Shown one piece after another: positions 14,402 to 21,211 of a stretch of 64,000 nucleotides of DNA. Source of the stretch: Candidatus Zixiibacteriota bacterium (GTDB lineage: Bacteria; Zixibacteria; MSB-5A5; GN15; FEB-12); the NCBI GenBank assembly GCA_020351995.1, contig CP070674.1, forward strand, positions 862,688 to 926,687, given 5' to 3'. The notes under the pieces were generated by a model, which was not told the DNA's origin, searched no databases, and worked only from the letters and a program-made list of their open reading frames with translations. The position numbers and the translations under genes are program-made. Numbering within the stretch: position 1 is the first letter of the stretch; each line of letters starts with the position of its first letter.

Positions 14402-15841
14402 TCAGAAAACATCGGCTGTGAAGCGATAAATCTCGGCGTGCCTGTCGCGGTAGCTGTTCTTCGGAAGACCGGCCTTGAGGCACGTCTGTTCCAGGAACTC
14501 TGTCCTATCCCAGCCATACTCCGTGGCCACCTGAGGCAGCAGAAGACCGGAATGCAGGTCCAGCTTGATCATCAGGCCATCGCGGCCGACTTTGATATCT
14601 TCTAAATCGCGGACCCTTTCCAGCGGAGACAGAACGGAGATGTCGTACTCAAGCTTGGGGAATTCAATGGCGGTCACGGGCGGGAAGCGGGGATCGTCGA
14701 AGGCCGCCGCCGCAGCCATATCGGCCACAGCTTTATATAAGGGGTCGCGCGCCTTGATCAGACCGATACACCCGCGCAACTGACCATCTATCTTAAGCGT
14801 CACGAATACACCTCGCTCTACACTCAGGCCATCGGCGGCGGTAGGGATATACGGCTCGTCCTTGATGCGGGCCTCGATGGCTTCCCTGGCAATATCGAGA
14901 AGCCTCTTTTTCTCTTCGTCGTTGAGCGAAAACTCTTGCCGCGGACGAGCCGCCCGGGCGCCCAGTGTGGATTTCGTCTGCGTCGCCACTCTATCCGCTA
15001 CGATCGCGGCCGACAGGTAACCGACCACTTCCTGAAAATCTCCGGTCGTCTGCCCGGAAGTAGTGTATTCGAGAAACTCAACTTCTTTTCCGCCCAGCCT
15101 TTTCGCCGCCTTCATAACCGCCGCGACAATGCCGCCGCCACAGGCTTCCCCTTCACCGGCCTCCAGCGTATCTATCAACAGTTCAGGGTCAAAGCGCTCG
15201 ACCGCTTTCTGGATTGCGCCGTCAAGACGCTCGGCCACCTTCTGTGAGTGAAAGTGGGAAAGATCAGTTGAGGCTACAATCAGGGCGTTGGTATCCTTGA
15301 GTGCCACCCCGAGAGTTTCGCCCAGGGAGTTGATGGAGTCTTCTTCCTGATCACCCATTACGATCGCGACCAGCTTGAACTTGCCCAGCACTATCTGGAG
15401 AAATGGAAGCTGTACCTCGAGAGCGTGCTCTCCTCTCGTGGCGCCGCTGGCGTGACCCATATTGGACATATATACCGACGGGTGGATTGAGCCGATCTTT
15501 CTGGAAAGTTCGCTGTCAATATCCACAGTCCCGAGAGGGGTGTCATATCCGGCACCGTCATAAACCGACGATCCCTTGAAGAAGACTCTGTGGGATGGCG
15601 ACACAACCACCACTGTATCATAGTTCTCACCTTCAAGCAGCTTATAGGCCACGGCGGCGGTGTGGCCGGAGTAAGGATAACCGGCATGGGGAACCACTAA
15701 TGCGATCGGGGCGCCGCCCAGCTGTCTTTTGGGCACCTTCGAATAGAACTCGGCGATCACCTTTGCGAGTTCCCCCGGGTGAGCGGGATAAAAGAGCCCG
15801 GCTACAGCCGGTTTTCGGATGTCACGATTGTGGGTAATCAT
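14402..15841 (-). CDS. Memo-AMMECR1 fusion protein (AmmeMemoRadiSam system B+A)
   Basis: About 479 residues. The N-terminal half is a Memo domain: PAVAGLFYPAHPGELA, LVVPHAGYPYSGHTAA, VVSPSHRVFF, EHALEVQLPFLQ and ASTDLSHFH, with the histidines that form the Memo metal-site pocket. The C-terminal half is AMMECR1: GVFVTLKIDGQLRGCIG, DDPRFPPV and LEYDISVLSP. In many bacteria these proteins are encoded with a radical SAM enzyme (the 'AmmeMemoRadiSam' set); here the two are fused and no radical SAM gene is in the window. The start is taken at 15841 because the alternative ATG at 15859 lies inside the -10 box of the promoter. The molecular function of the set is unproven. Confidence 0.92.
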   Translation of the reverse strand: MITHNRDIRKPAVAGLFYPAHPGELAKVIAEFYSKVPKRQLGGAPIALVVPHAGYPYSGHTAAVAYKLLEGENYDTVVVVSPSHRVFFKGSSVYDGAGYDTPLGTVDIDSELSRKIGSIHPSVYMSNMGHASGATRGEHALEVQLPFLQIVLGKFKLVAIVMGDQEEDSINSLGETLGVALKDTNALIVASTDLSHFHSQKVAERLDGAIQKAVERFDPELLIDTLEAGEGEACGGGIVAAVMKAAKRLGGKEVEFLEYTTSGQTTGDFQEVVGYLSAAIVADRVATQTKSTLGARAARPRQEFSLNDEEKKRLLDIAREAIEARIKDEPYIPTAADGLSVERGVFVTLKIDGQLRGCIGLIKARDPLYKAVADMAAAAAFDDPRFPPVTAIEFPKLEYDISVLSPLERVRDLEDIKVGRDGLMIKLDLHSGLLLPQVATEYGWDRTEFLEQTCLKAGLPKNSYRDRHAEIYRFTADVF

Positions 15842-15857
15842 ACTGGCCCTGCTATCC

Positions 15858-15885
15858 ATAATACGAGTTCAGCGGCCCTTGTCAA
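15858..15885 (-). promoter_or_regulatory. Predicted promoter of the Memo-AMMECR1 operon
   Basis: Minus strand: -35 TTGACA (15885-15880), 16-bp spacer, -10 TATTAT (15863-15858). The -10 box overlaps the upstream candidate ATG, so translation must begin at the next ATG (15841), which has AGGG 6 bases ahead. Confidence 0.65.
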
Positions 15886-15910
15886 GGGGGGAATAATTGA
15901 CCAGGCCGCC

Positions 15911-17203
15911 TTAATAAGGCTCCGGGCAGAGCACGGCAGGAAACGGCCATGATCGCCAGTCTTGGAGTGTGTCCATAAAAGGTGGCACGACCCCGTGGTT
16001 ACGCCTCAACCCAATCATCAAAGTCGCTGAGAGAATGTCCTTTACGTTCCGGTAATAATTGATCACCACGGCCTTTTCCGTGTCGGGGTCAAGCGAAACT
16101 GACGGAATTACATATGACAGGTCATTGATGACATATATCTCAGGCAATTCTTGGAGCCCGCTGTACCTTTTCTTGATGTAGAGCGGCGTTATTCCGTACT
16201 CACTCCACAGTATCTCATCGTTCAGATGGTATCCGCAGTAGTAGATGTTCTTGATCTCAAGTCTCTTGAGCAATAGCATGAATTCATAGATGTCTCCAAT
16301 GGTTCGGTCTTTGCAGGTCAGCCTGTTGCGATAAATCACACCATACTCTGCGCTGGTCTCCTTGAGAAAATCCTCAAATGCAGTCAGTCTTGTATCCACA
16401 CTCTCGCTTTGGAATACAAGAACGAAGTTGTTACCGGTATCGACCTCACATACGGTAGTGGCAAACACGTCGTTCGATGTTCGCTTCGGATAGATCTGGC
16501 TGTACGTAACGGAATCAGATCTTATAACCCCAACATCGTGCTTCATCAGTAGTGAAAGCGCCGCTCCCTTCATTTCTTTCGTATACGATGTAACCCCCTG
16601 TTCAAACACAAAGACCCTCGCACCGTGACCAGGATTTCTCAGACGATAGGAGAAAATTCCGTTGGGTTTATCCGTGACGCAATAGAAAGCGTCAAAGCCA
16701 ACATAGAAAAGATTTTCTATTTCGTGGTAAAACAGATAATCGTCCATAATCTCAGAGCCGGCAAATGTAATTGACCCCTCGGAAATCAAAAGCTTGTTGC
16801 TTTGCGGATGTTGCGAGCGAGCATAGATTATTTTCGCGCCCAGTCTGTCAAACTCCTCGATCAGCGGATTGATAAAGCATATTATCATTGAATCCAGGAA
16901 ATCGATGTTCCATACATCGACAATAACCAGGGCGCTTCGCTCCGGGTCGATTAATGTCTCATGAGTAATATCAACATATCTGTTAACGGCCCTATCGTAG
17001 CGAGACAATGTATATGTAACTTTCATGTAACCGGACGCGTCTGCGCTGACTCCGTGTGTCTCCAGAAAGCTCCTGGTGTCAACTGGCAGGTGATATTCGG
17101 TCTCCGGCCCGGCACAACCGGACACAACAGCAATGAGGGCCAATATTACAACCGGGAGAGAGAACTCTATTTGGATGACTTCAGGCCTGCGCATAAGTAA
17201 CAC
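15911..17203 (-). CDS. Lipoprotein with degenerate, apparently duplicated isochorismatase-like domains
   Basis: 430 residues; lipobox VVSGC with Cys30. The first domain (about 85-215) has RSALVIVDVWN, LGAKIIYARSQHP and FYVGFDAFYCVTD, reminiscent of isochorismatase-like cysteine hydrolases (Asp of LVIVDVQ, cysteine after the GV turn). A second, more eroded copy seems to follow (FVLVFQSESVDTRL, LKRLEIKNIYYCGYHLND, YVINDLSYVIPS). The catalytic Asp-Lys-Cys triad cannot be traced with certainty in either half, so a binding function is as likely as hydrolysis. Placing this normally cytoplasmic fold behind a lipoprotein signal is unusual. It is transcribed leftward toward the Memo-AMMECR1 gene. Confidence 0.6.
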   Translation of the reverse strand: MLLMRRPEVIQIEFSLPVVILALIAVVSGCAGPETEYHLPVDTRSFLETHGVSADASGYMKVTYTLSRYDRAVNRYVDITHETLIDPERSALVIVDVWNIDFLDSMIICFINPLIEEFDRLGAKIIYARSQHPQSNKLLISEGSITFAGSEIMDDYLFYHEIENLFYVGFDAFYCVTDKPNGIFSYRLRNPGHGARVFVFEQGVTSYTKEMKGAALSLLMKHDVGVIRSDSVTYSQIYPKRTSNDVFATTVCEVDTGNNFVLVFQSESVDTRLTAFEDFLKETSAEYGVIYRNRLTCKDRTIGDIYEFMLLLKRLEIKNIYYCGYHLNDEILWSEYGITPLYIKKRYSGLQELPEIYVINDLSYVIPSVSLDPDTEKAVVINYYRNVKDILSATLMIGLRRNHGVVPPFMDTLQDWRSWPFPAVLCPEPY

Positions 17204-17375: not shown

Positions 17376-18347
17376 CTATTTGCCTTTGGGCGGTTCATCG
17401 CAGGGCTCCGGGTTGCCTGCGCCCTTGCCGTGGCCACCGCCGTGTTTGGCCTGCATACCTTCAACCATCGCCGCCAGCGAGGCGATAATGCCGCTCGCTT
17501 CATATGGCAAGAACAGCTTGTTGGCCTTACCATCGGCCAGCTTCGGCAGCATATCCAGATACTTCAGGGTGATCAGTTCCTCATCCGGACGGCCTTCATG
17601 AATGGCACCGAAAACATTCAGGATTGCCTTGGCTTCACCCTCCGCTACCGCAATCTGACGATACCTCTCAGCATCGGCTTTCTTCTTGACTGCTTCGGCA
17701 AAACCTTCGGCTTCCAGAATCTGGGAAATCTTGGTACCTTCGGCTTCGGTAATAGCGGCCTGACGGACAGCTTCGGCATCGAGAATCTTGGCACGCTTGT
17801 CACGCTCGGCTTTCATCTGCCGGCTCATGGCCTCGGTGATATCACGCGGGGGATCGATCCGCTGCAGCTCAACGCGGTTTACTTTCACTCCCCACTTGTC
17901 CGTGGCCTGATCGAGAACATCACGAAGCTGGGCGTTGATGGTGTCACGCGAACTCAGACAACGGTCGAGATCCAGCTCGCCGATAACGTTCCTCAGGTTG
18001 GTCTGCGCCAGTTTGGTAGCCGCTAGAACATAGTTCATAATTTCGTAGCGGGAACGAACCGGATCGGTCACCTGGGCGTAGACCACAGCGTCAACTTCGA
18101 CACCGACATTGTCAGAGGTAATCACCAACTGGGGCGGTACATCGAGCACCACCTCGCGCATGTCAACCTTTATAGCTGTATCGAAAAAGGGAACGATCAA
18201 ATTCAAGCCGGGATCGAGAATCCGCTGGAACCTGCCCAGTCTTTCCACCAGACCTTTTTCGAAGGGTCGGACTATCCGAATCGCCATCGCGGTCAGGATG
18301 AACGCGAGTACACCAAAAACAATAATGAATAATAAGACGGGGTTCAT
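17376..18347 (-). CDS. SPFH/Band 7 (stomatin-like) membrane protein
   Basis: 323 residues. N-terminal membrane anchor (LLFIIVFGVLAFILTAMAIRIV) followed by the SPFH domain: RPFEKGLVERLGRF, DPGLNLIVPFFD, DMREVVLDVPPQLVITSDN and the conserved YAQVTDPVRSRYEI. A long Ala/Glu-rich coiled-coil segment follows (about 190-250). The C-terminus is rich in Gly/His/Pro. Such stomatin-like proteins form membrane-associated oligomeric rings and are commonly encoded with NfeD, exactly as here (NfeD ends 13 bp upstream). Likely role: membrane microdomain organisation or control of an associated protease or transporter. Confidence 0.93.
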   Translation of the reverse strand: MNPVLLFIIVFGVLAFILTAMAIRIVRPFEKGLVERLGRFQRILDPGLNLIVPFFDTAIKVDMREVVLDVPPQLVITSDNVGVEVDAVVYAQVTDPVRSRYEIMNYVLAATKLAQTNLRNVIGELDLDRCLSSRDTINAQLRDVLDQATDKWGVKVNRVELQRIDPPRDITEAMSRQMKAERDKRAKILDAEAVRQAAITEAEGTKISQILEAEGFAEAVKKKADAERYRQIAVAEGEAKAILNVFGAIHEGRPDEELITLKYLDMLPKLADGKANKLFLPYEASGIIASLAAMVEGMQAKHGGGHGKGAGNPEPCDEPPKGK

Positions 18348-18360
18348 GGCATTATCCTTT

Positions 18361-18789
18361 CTAAGTTTTTCTCTCCACGTGGACCTTGGCGCCGGAGACG
18401 GACGTAATGGTCACTTTATCCCCCTCATCAATCTTCTCATTTGCCGTAGCCATCCAGACCTCGCCCTCGATGCGAATCTGTCCGCCCACGTCGGGGTCGA
18501 TTGATTTCGTCACCAGTCCGACTTTGCCAATCAAAGCGTCGACGTTTGATTTCTGCGGAGACTCCTTGGTGATCTTCTTCGCCAGTGACCGGGTCAGGGG
18601 AAGCAGAATTACCGAGACGCCCACGAAGATACCTATCTGCAGGTAGTAGTTCTCCGGGTAAATGAAACTTATCACACCCGACACCAGTGAGCCGGCTACG
18701 AAGCAGGCAAAAATCAAAGTTGGTGTCGCCAGTTCGAGAATCAGAAAGATCACGACGGCGGCCAGCCATATCCAAACCATATCGGGCAT
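18361..18789 (-). CDS. NfeD family protein
   Basis: 142 residues, the short NfeD form: two or three transmembrane helices (VWIWLAAVVIFLILELATP, FACFVAGSLVSGVISF, LQIGIFVGVSVILLPLT) followed by a C-terminal OB-fold (LIGKVGLVTKSIDPDVGGQIRIEGEVWMATAN, EGDKVTITSVSGAKVHVE). The family's G-x-x-G-x-x-x-x-x-l-x-P-x-G-x-v pattern is visible. It pairs with the SPFH protein immediately downstream. Strong AAAGGAG Shine-Dalgarno before ATG at 18789. Confidence 0.92.
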   Translation of the reverse strand: MPDMVWIWLAAVVIFLILELATPTLIFACFVAGSLVSGVISFIYPENYYLQIGIFVGVSVILLPLTRSLAKKITKESPQKSNVDALIGKVGLVTKSIDPDVGGQIRIEGEVWMATANEKIDEGDKVTITSVSGAKVHVERKT

Positions 18790-18841
18790 AAATACTCCTT
18801 TCGGCTAAAGCTCCCGGCAGCAACTGTGCCGAGAGTCACAA

Positions 18842-18871
18842 ATATTACCTTGCATTTTAAAGTTTATTCAA
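18842..18871 (-). promoter_or_regulatory. Predicted promoter of the NfeD/SPFH operon
   Basis: Minus strand: -35 TTGAAT (18871-18866), 18-bp spacer, -10 TAATAT (18847-18842), about 50 bp upstream of the NfeD start. Confidence 0.55.
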
Positions 18872-18989
18872 CTAGCCCAATTCGATTAATTATGAAAGCT
18901 TATGAGGATAATGAATGTCAACTTTTATTAGTTGAAGACCCGGACTAAGTTAAAACAGCCCAGCAAAAAGGTACGCTGGAATTAACAAA

Positions 18990-19760
18990 ATGTTTACCGA
19001 ACCATACGCGCGGTTTGCGGAAGTATATGACTCGATGGGCGCCGACGATTTTTCCATCAAGATGACCGAGTACTGCCGAAAGATATTTCGCAGGTTCAAA
19101 ATCAACCCCTGTACCGGGCTGGATATCTGTTGCGGTACCGGAACAGCCATCAAGAAGTTCTCCGAACTCGGGATACATATGTGCGGCCTTGACCGCAGTG
19201 CGGCTATGCTGGCCGTGGCCGCGAAAAAGCTGAAAGGTCACCGCGTAACCCTGTATCAGAAGCCGCTGCCACGTTTCAGAATCATTGATGCGCTTGACAG
19301 CAGAAAAACACGACGCTTCGATCTGGTAACCTGTTTTTTCGACTCACTCAACTACCTGAAAAACCAGCGCGAACTGGGGCAGGCCTTCAAATCCATTTAT
19401 ATCCACCTGAATTCCGGCGGATACTTCATTTTTGATATGAATACCCCGGCAGCCATGAAAATTCTCTGGGGAGGGCAGGTATTTGTGAAAAGTAGCCCGA
19501 ACCTTTTCACTGTCTGGCATAATGAATACTATCCCAAAACCAAATCGGCCAAATGCACGGCCACGTTCTTCAAGAAAAAGGGGACCACGTGGGAACGATT
19601 CGACGAAGAGCATCTCGAGCGGGCCTATGATAACCGGACCATTAAGAAGACGTTGCGGGATTCCGGCTTGGTGGTAAAGGGATTCTACCGCTGTTTGAGT
19701 TTCGAGAAACCCGCCAAAGGAACTTACCGTATTTGCGGGGTAGCAAAAAGGCCGGTCTAA
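18990..19760 (+). CDS. Class I SAM-dependent methyltransferase
   Basis: 256 residues. SAM-binding motif GLDICCGTGTAIKKFSELG (about residues 42-60), then MCGLDRSAAML with the acidic residue of strand 2, FDLVTCFFDSLNYL and the post-motif III segment GGYFIFDMNTP. The last hallmark, with 'FDSLNYL', is shared with small-molecule and sugar methyltransferases. Substrate unknown. It stands alone on the plus strand between the NfeD/SPFH operon (divergent) and FmdB (convergent), and its stop codon falls inside the shared terminator stem. Confidence 0.85.
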   Translation: MFTEPYARFAEVYDSMGADDFSIKMTEYCRKIFRRFKINPCTGLDICCGTGTAIKKFSELGIHMCGLDRSAAMLAVAAKKLKGHRVTLYQKPLPRFRIIDALDSRKTRRFDLVTCFFDSLNYLKNQRELGQAFKSIYIHLNSGGYFIFDMNTPAAMKILWGGQVFVKSSPNLFTVWHNEYYPKTKSAKCTATFFKKKGTTWERFDEEHLERAYDNRTIKKTLRDSGLVVKGFYRCLSFEKPAKGTYRICGVAKRPV

Positions 19761-19813: not shown

Positions 19814-20014
19814 TCAGCTAAATCCGGTGCTGCACGACGGTTTGCCGCAGGGAAGACCCGAGGAAGACGAACCGCTCGAGGCCGAAAAGACCGAGAGCAT
19901 TCGAGACACGTTCTCGGACTTGCACTTGGGGCAGAAGACTTTAACTTCGCTCCCCGAAACGAGTTCCTCGAACTGATGACCACATTGCGAACACTTGTAT
20001 TCAAAGAGAGGCAT
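19814..20014 (-). CDS. FmdB-type zinc ribbon protein
   Basis: 66 residues. MPLFEYKCSQCGHQFEELV with a second pair CPKC makes a four-cysteine zinc ribbon of the FmdB/CxxC_CXXC_SSSS regulator family, including the serine-rich tail (ASSGSSSSGLPCGKPSC). These small proteins are widespread and are thought to be regulatory, but their function is unproven. The Shine-Dalgarno AGGAG overlaps the TAG stop of the preceding 62-codon gene, implying translational coupling with the candidate selenoprotein. Confidence 0.88.
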   Translation of the reverse strand: MPLFEYKCSQCGHQFEELVSGSEVKVFCPKCKSENVSRMLSVFSASSGSSSSGLPCGKPSCSTGFS

Positions 20015-20023
20015 CTGGAGCTC

Positions 20024-20212
20024 CTACATTATCCTCATATCGGTAAACGATGTGGCCGCCCCGGCCACGGCTCCCAGTACCGTCCACGGGTAGGGATTCA
20101 CCATCACCGGTCAGGTTCCCCCTAAAATCAGGGCGGCGAAATACAGAATATAGCCAATAATTCCGCCGGCAACAGTGAAAAAGATCGTCCTGAAATTGAG
20201 ATATTTGCTCAT
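20024..20212 (-). CDS. Candidate selenoprotein: DUF6132-like membrane protein with in-frame TGA (Sec34)
   Basis: Starting at ATG 20212 the frame codes one hydrophobic helix (IFFTVAGGIIGYILYFAALILGG), then TGA at 20113-20111, then continues in frame without interruption (PVMVNPYPWTVLGAVAGAA) to TAG at 20024, 62 codons in all. From memory, DUF6132-type proteins have the pattern G-T-C-P-x-x-x-N-P-x-x-x-x-x-G-A at this place, and the TGA falls on that cysteine. A hairpin with a GU-containing apical loop lies 15 nt past the TGA. The TAG overlaps the Shine-Dalgarno of fmdB, as expected if the full frame is translated. Alternatives: a recent nonsense mutation, or a truncated 33-residue peptide. Neighbours OsmC, DUF302 and FmdB are consistent with a thiol/sulfur redox setting. 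Weak Shine-Dalgarno (GAGG, 14 bases upstream). Confidence 0.6.
20073..20095 (-). promoter_or_regulatory. Candidate bacterial SECIS hairpin
   Basis: On the minus strand, beginning 15 nt after the TGA: CCC UACC pairs with GGUA (CU bulge) GGG, closing an apical loop CGUGGAC. Seven base pairs, one small bulge and a GU in the loop about 24 nt from the UGA match the general bacterial SECIS layout read by SelB. The match is by eye only and no folding energy was computed. Confidence 0.45.
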
Positions 20213-20242: not shown

Positions 20243-20629
20243 TTAAACCGCAGCTTCCATGATCTTTCTAAGCTTATTTTCTACATCGGCGGCCAACTCA
20301 TCTAGTCCCGCCTCCGGCAGCATCTGCGAAATCATCATCGGCCGCGCCAGCGTTACCACTGTCTTGCCGCCCTCGACGTGAACCACGAACTTACACGGCA
20401 TGAACATCGCCGCGCCCACCTCTTTATTAAGCGCTTCGTTGGCAAAAACCGCGTTGCACACCTCAATGATCTTCAAGGGTTCGCGATTCAACCCTTTCTC
20501 GGCCAGAGTAGCCTGAACATCATGTATGTGCAGTACCCGAAACTGGTTGTTGGCTGTTTCCCGCTCCAGGTTTTCGACAACGGTGTCAAACGCCTTGTCG
20601 GACTCCAATCGGTACGCTAATTCTTCCAT
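20243..20629 (-). CDS. DUF302 family protein
   Basis: 128 residues. The DUF302 core is visible: FDTVVENLERETANNQFRVLHIHDVQATLAEKG, then LKIIEVCNAVFANEALNKEV with the family's 'E.CNP..A' motif, and the strand MFMPCKFVVHVEGGKTVVTLARP. Cys residues of 'EVCN' and 'MPCK' are retained. The fold binds small ligands or heme-like/sulfur species in some relatives but has no general proven role. It precedes the candidate selenoprotein by 30 bp in the same direction. Confidence 0.88.
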   Translation of the reverse strand: MEELAYRLESDKAFDTVVENLERETANNQFRVLHIHDVQATLAEKGLNREPLKIIEVCNAVFANEALNKEVGAAMFMPCKFVVHVEGGKTVVTLARPMMISQMLPEAGLDELAADVENKLRKIMEAAV

Positions 20630-20694: not shown

Positions 20695-21117
20695 TTAATT
20701 TGCCAGAACCTCATAACTCGTGGTCACCTTCGTCCGATTGGCAACGGTCTGGCTGACTACACAATACTTACTCTCCGACAGGTCTATCGCCATGGCCAGC
20801 TTCTTTTCGTCCAGATTATCACCACGGACAATGAACTTGATCTCGACGGTATGAAACGGCCTGGGATAATCATCGTTCTGGTGCGCAGTCATCTCTATCT
20901 CCAGCGAGGTCAATTTCTGCTTTTGCTTCTGAAGGATCCGCACAATGTCAATCCCGGCGCACCCGGCCATGCCGAAAAGGAGAAGCTCGGTCGGCTTATA
21001 GCCATCTTCCTGCCCACCAGCACCTTTTGAGGCATCGGTGGCGATTTTGTGGCCGAAGGCCGAGGTCCCCTCAAATTTCAAGCCCCCCGTCCAGCCCATT
21101 TTTGCCTGCATCATCAT
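20695..21117 (-). CDS. OsmC/Ohr-family peroxiredoxin-like protein
   Basis: About 140 residues from ATG 21117, chosen because GAGG lies 6 bases upstream. Motifs: GYKPTELLLFGMAGCAGIDIVRIL carrying the first cysteine of the OsmC family (GxxxC), and SKYCVVSQTVANRTKVTTSYE carrying the second (KYC). OsmC/Ohr proteins are dithiol-dependent organic hydroperoxide reductases. This one belongs by appearance to the YhfA-like subgroup. It is the first gene of the small redox cluster running leftward to FmdB, 65 bp upstream of the DUF302 gene. Confidence 0.9.
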   Translation of the reverse strand: MMMQAKMGWTGGLKFEGTSAFGHKIATDASKGAGGQEDGYKPTELLLFGMAGCAGIDIVRILQKQKQKLTSLEIEMTAHQNDDYPRPFHTVEIKFIVRGDNLDEKKLAMAIDLSESKYCVVSQTVANRTKVTTSYEVLAN

Positions 21118-21211
21118 TGGAGCCTCACTACCTTTCATACGAATATGGTAATTTGCGTTTACCAATATAATGAATGAGGCCTGCCTGACAACAGCATCTC
21201 AATAAATAGAA

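Follow-up and report, generated by a model that had tools for sequence, protein, structure and literature searches.

The stretch of DNA analysed here (the window; 64,000 nucleotides of contig CP070674.1 from a Candidatus Zixiibacteriota bacterium) contains a short frame on the minus strand with an internal TGA, which raises the question whether this codon ends a peptide or is read as selenocysteine (Sec). The frame runs from an ATG at 20212-20210 across the TGA at 20113-20111 to a TAG at 20026-20024. These coordinates were confirmed, and the sequence bears out the preliminary description of the frame as 62 codons interrupted by this TGA alone. The same description had the terminal TAG overlapping the ribosome-binding site of fmdB, and this is the case (the site is AGGAGC, and the ATG of fmdB lies at 20014). 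Read through, the frame yields 62 residues, MSKYLNFRTIFFTVAGGIIGYILYFAALILGGTUPVMVNPYPWTVLGAVAGAATSFTDMRIM. Ordinary gene calling would cut such a gene short at the TGA or miss it. The features of the locus are listed in Table 1.

Table 1. Features of the locus, in window coordinates; offsets of the hairpins are counted in nucleotides past the TGA.
Feature	Position	Offset	Strand	Remarks
FmdB-family zinc-ribbon protein	19814..20014		-	immediately downstream; ends in an ordinary TGA stop
Putative selenoprotein gene, Sec form of the DUF6132 kind	20024..20212		-	62 codons including UGA, then TAG
RNA hairpin B, GUGGCC-GGGGC-GGCCAC	20052..20068	+43..+59	-	SECIS-type apical loop; proposed SelB-binding element
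RNA hairpin A, loop CGUGGAC	20072..20096	+15..+39	-	canonical SECIS distance
In-frame TGA, proposed Sec34	20111..20113		-	aligned with the invariant Cys of homologues
DUF302 protein	20243..20629		-	next gene upstream
OsmC-family protein	20695..21165		-	both typical cysteines; longest ORF

In a read-through search, 34 of 61 genomes, that of the window among them, had TGA at this position. Profile A1, built from 30 read-through TGA proteins and run on 132 genomes of the phylum, recovered a homologue in 69 genomes of Candidatus Zixiibacteriota; the site was TGA in 56 of these and Cys in 13, with no other residue. An unrelated residue in homologues or a sequencing error would have spoken against the preliminary description. 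The former was not encountered, and the latter is excluded because the same TGA recurs in independent genomes. Past the TGA, the frame retains the pattern G-S-T-U-x-x-M-C-N-P ... G-A-V-x-G-A-V-M-S. In 19 non-overlapping close pairs, pN/pS was 0.27 before the TGA and 0.42 beyond it, and we therefore conclude that the downstream part is translated. Synonymous change decreased from 0.50 before the TGA to 0.32 after it, as would be expected if the RNA itself carries information.

The simplest alternative is that the UGA is a true stop, in which case the gene would encode only a single-helix peptide of 33 residues or be decayed, with the rest untranslated. The standard table-11 reading indeed ends there, and short hydrophobic peptides exist. 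However, this would leave the same TGA in 56 genomes, the codon-level purifying selection beyond it and the Cys that takes its place in open homologues without explanation, and we give it almost no credence. A pseudogene and two separate ORFs were likewise considered and rejected.

Sec and Cys forms replace each other among sister genomes, both in f15 (Sec in L115, Cys in L119) and in f5 (Sec in L124, Cys in L125 and L126). The tree contains at least three Sec/Cys changes on well-supported branches; the sequences are short and many forks remain unresolved. An IUPAC DNA pattern with the TGA, used after contig scans with the single protein and with the A1 alignment had given nothing usable, returned 18 contigs, 17 of which encode a protein of the same cluster's type. 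Those of the 17 that carry a group name belong to Candidatus Zixiibacteriota or to candidate division GN15, an older name for the group, and the others are labeled "bacterium." The remaining contig belongs to a second phylum; it derives from Candidatus Fischerbacteria RBG_13_37_8, the genome of which has SelB. The wider Fischerbacteria group holds more Sec forms (L194, L195 and L196, with GSTUG) and also Cys forms, such as GCSTGACPLTATP. We did not find SelB in two Cys-form genomes (G097 and G061, both incomplete assemblies), which fits a gene in which Sec was replaced or never gained. The profile A1 search gave no match in 12 genomes of the same family (G015, G019, G021, G076 and eight more), several of them 97-99% complete; these represent either real losses or forms that diverged past detection.

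Absence of selA, selB, selC and selD would have refuted the proposal. All four are present in the source genome, a single contig of 3,608,951 bases. Its tRNA-Sec gene scored 69.5 bits (cut-off 47) and its SelB 335 bits (cut-off 242). selA (L043:13615-14997) lies adjacent to selB (15008-16912) and was recognized from its translation and its position directly before selB, without a profile. The SelD of this genome (371 bits) has an in-frame TGA of its own in the motif AGUASKL. Among the SelD UGA rows we counted only those with an AGUASK-type motif; several other rows were unrelated ORFs. SelB was found in nearly all relatives, so that presence or absence of the machinery discriminates little within the phylum. 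As a side observation, SelD also occurs free of in-frame stops as part of a frame of about 740 aa (L140, G048:C26:79615-80541, and L139, G027:C132). The L140 frame starts with a cysteine-desulfurase-like sequence (MQPIYLDYNATT), which suggests that a desulfurase is fused to SelD there; a separate SelD with TGA is present in this genome too.

The UGA could still be translated without Sec, by a near-cognate tRNA (e.g., that for Trp) or under a changed code, and a stem-loop past a stop codon can also promote read-through. Yet the exchange partner at this site is Cys and never Trp, the genome encodes a full Sec system, the downstream RNA contains a SECIS-type loop motif (see below), and fmdB next door terminates at an ordinary TGA, because of which a global reassignment of UGA was rejected as well. 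We regard non-Sec read-through as very improbable. That the UGA at this site codes for selenocysteine we hold with high confidence, on comparative grounds and without protein or selenium-labeling data.

The best-known bacterial SECIS element is that of E. coli fdhF. For the locus studied here, a SECIS-like hairpin of 7 bp with loop CGUGGAC had been described 15 nt past the TGA. A hairpin with this loop exists at this position (hairpin A), but it pairs as UCCC-UACC/GGUA-CU-GGGA, that is, 4+4 bp with a 2-nt bulge. Structure past the TGA is real, but the best SECIS signatures reside in the next hairpin, B. We shuffled synonymous codons within each gene while keeping the protein fixed (no correction for shared ancestry). 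In 54 TGA genes, two stretches past the UGA were more stably folded than in the shuffles: the mean z was -1.69 for the hairpin A region (+13..+40) and -1.39 for the hairpin B region (+41..+61), compared to -0.19 and -0.22, respectively, in the 13 Cys homologues. Hairpin B keeps its register across two families, shows covariation (GUGACC/GGUCAU, GUGGCC/GGCCAC, AUAGCC/GGCUAU, ACAGCC/GGCUGU, AUGAUC/GAUCAU) and is broken in the Cys homologues. In 52 of 54 genes, the loop Gly is encoded by GGU or GGG, and in none by GGC; elsewhere in these genes, GGU/GGG account for 177 of 392 Gly codons (Fisher P = 1.7e-14, uncorrected for ancestry). Hairpin A varies in sequence and is usually strong, with only modest strength in the window, and its loop motif is not conserved. 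RNAalifold recovered only the core of hairpin B from the full ungapped set and no structure from a diverse subset; the full structure was missed because hairpin A varies in register.

In the published bSECIS model, the apical loop N1-G-[G/U]-N-N2 tops a stable stem and the usual spacing is 16-37 nt after the UGA (PMC13188914). The hairpin B loops GGUGC, GGGGC and GGUCU fit this motif, but they lie 48-49 nt past the UGA, with a conserved hairpin in between. Hairpin A alone could be the SECIS, with hairpin B maintained for a different purpose, for example to control translation of fmdB: the A loop is at canonical distance (in the window, 22 nt past the UGA) and has G at its second position, and the mean z of the A region is the value given above. 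However, positional covariation, fixed register and selection for GGU/GGG in the loop codon are seen in B and not in A, and a hairpin occupies the B position in an independent Sec gene (L115) as well. We consider it possible, but unlikely, that A acts alone. Hairpin B is probably the SelB site, an inference made despite its location outside the published spacing, and hairpin A is possibly a spacer, a role that is inferred, or an accessory SECIS stem.

Folding agrees only conditionally with two neighboring hairpins. With ribosome-covered bases omitted, the mean probability of hairpin B was 0.67 vs. 0.13 in shuffles. When 66 nt of the window RNA were folded without constraints, hairpin B was outcompeted (P 0.01), and it reached a P of 1.00 only with the first 9-12 bases excluded, with A and B then side by side. 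We propose that SelB would deliver Sec-tRNA-Sec to the UGA with the aid of this downstream RNA structure. The signal would consist of the two side-by-side hairpins, the distal one (B, loop G-G-[U/G]-N-C) being the likely SelB site and the proximal one (A) probably folding out the extra spacer, which would bring B close enough to the ribosome to work. A distal SelB-binding hairpin about 48 nt past the UGA, brought near by a hairpin that is variable in sequence and conserved in structure, would be a new SECIS geometry, a suggestion that may equally well prove wrong. If the tandem-hairpin reading is true, the bacterial SECIS spacing rule used by gene-finding software is too narrow. SelD of the same genomes has an apparently ordinary hairpin about 20 nt past its UGA.

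The product would comprise an N-terminal basic stretch, a helix, the short loop GGT-Sec-PVMVNP and a second helix. Structure prediction placed Sec34 between two helices (residues 3-29 and 40-60; mean pLDDT 77). The net charge is about +3 at the N terminus and about 0 in the loop, and the Sec loop therefore probably faces the outside of the membrane according to the positive-inside rule, a topology that is inferred. In this loop, Sec would act as a reactive nucleophile. The window protein contains no Cys at all, whereas 44 of the 56 Sec members have one at Sec+4; any redox bond of its Sec must therefore involve another molecule, which we propose would be a second copy or a partner.

Assignment of the protein to DUF6132, as made in the preliminary description, held at the level of kinship and not of formal membership. 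The window protein itself had no Pfam match and did not meet the curated cut-off of PF19628 (DUF6132), because of which we do not file it as a member, and a PF19628 search over its own genome found nothing. Seven of 30 Sec relatives match PF19628 weakly (best E 3.5e-4), three of the scanned Cys relatives, which belong to the same class, score above the DUF6132 cut-off, and hhalign aligned the Sec profile with DUF6132-type proteins with a probability of 98.1 (E 8.7e-14). Like the Cys form of PF19628, the window protein is a small two-helix membrane protein, and the two have in common the loop G-T-C-P-x-x-x-N-P, with the putative Sec at its conserved Cys, and G-A-x-x-G-A in the second helix. It differs in carrying Sec and in lacking the upstream Cys of G-C-x-S-G-T-C, a second Cys seen in DUF6132-type relatives. 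Sec relatives usually also differ from the Cys form by a Cys four residues past Sec, which the window protein does not share. On the sequence comparisons, we prefer to call it a divergent Sec branch of the DUF6132 kind.

The 2026 inventory of 119 prokaryotic selenoprotein families and subfamilies does not include DUF6132 (PMC13188914). The families listed there have in common with the present one a UGA at a reactive Cys, Sec/Cys pairs and SECIS-like downstream RNA (PMC13188914). None of the NCBIfam selenoprotein models matches. Literature searches on DUF6132 or Zixibacteria selenoproteins gave nothing relevant, and a full-text search for DUF6132 led only to an unrelated paper. While we found no prior report, we cannot exclude one in the groundwater MAG survey cited by PMC13188914. 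The proposal of a new selenoprotein family has strong comparative support. It would add a selenoprotein family in an uncultivated phylum, tied to a conserved OsmC-DUF302-FmdB cluster, and offer a reactive residue as the first functional handle on a DUF family.

This cluster was borne out by 34 loci, in which FmdB is adjacent downstream in all 34, OsmC lies upstream in 33 and DUF302 upstream in 30. Reading of translations placed an FmdB-like gene also after three Cys forms (L113, L116 and L119) and the independent Sec form L124. The true start of OsmC in the window is probably an ATG downstream of the start of the longest ORF. A shared pathway of OsmC, DUF302, the Sec protein and FmdB is well supported, while the thiol redox task that had been attributed to the four remains an inference. 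Judged from the OsmC partner and the exposed Sec, the most likely role is thiol/peroxide or sulfane-sulfur handling, to which we would give an even chance; metal-thiolate handling is the main alternative. In the former role, the co-encoded OsmC and DUF302 proteins would be natural partner candidates of the Sec, for peroxide or sulfane-sulfur/thiol reactions at the membrane. Other membrane proteins with Sec are the MerT-like proteins (PF02411), YeeE/YedE (PF04143) and the SO_0444 efflux transporter, which are membrane-transport selenoproteins of the 2026 inventory (PMC13188914). These are known or believed to deal with soft thiol, metal or sulfur ligands, but they belong to other families with other motifs and serve as an analogy only. 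Further along the window (17376-19760), genes for an SPFH protein, NfeD and a divergently transcribed methyltransferase adjoin the cluster in many relatives as well, so that the conserved block is larger than four genes.
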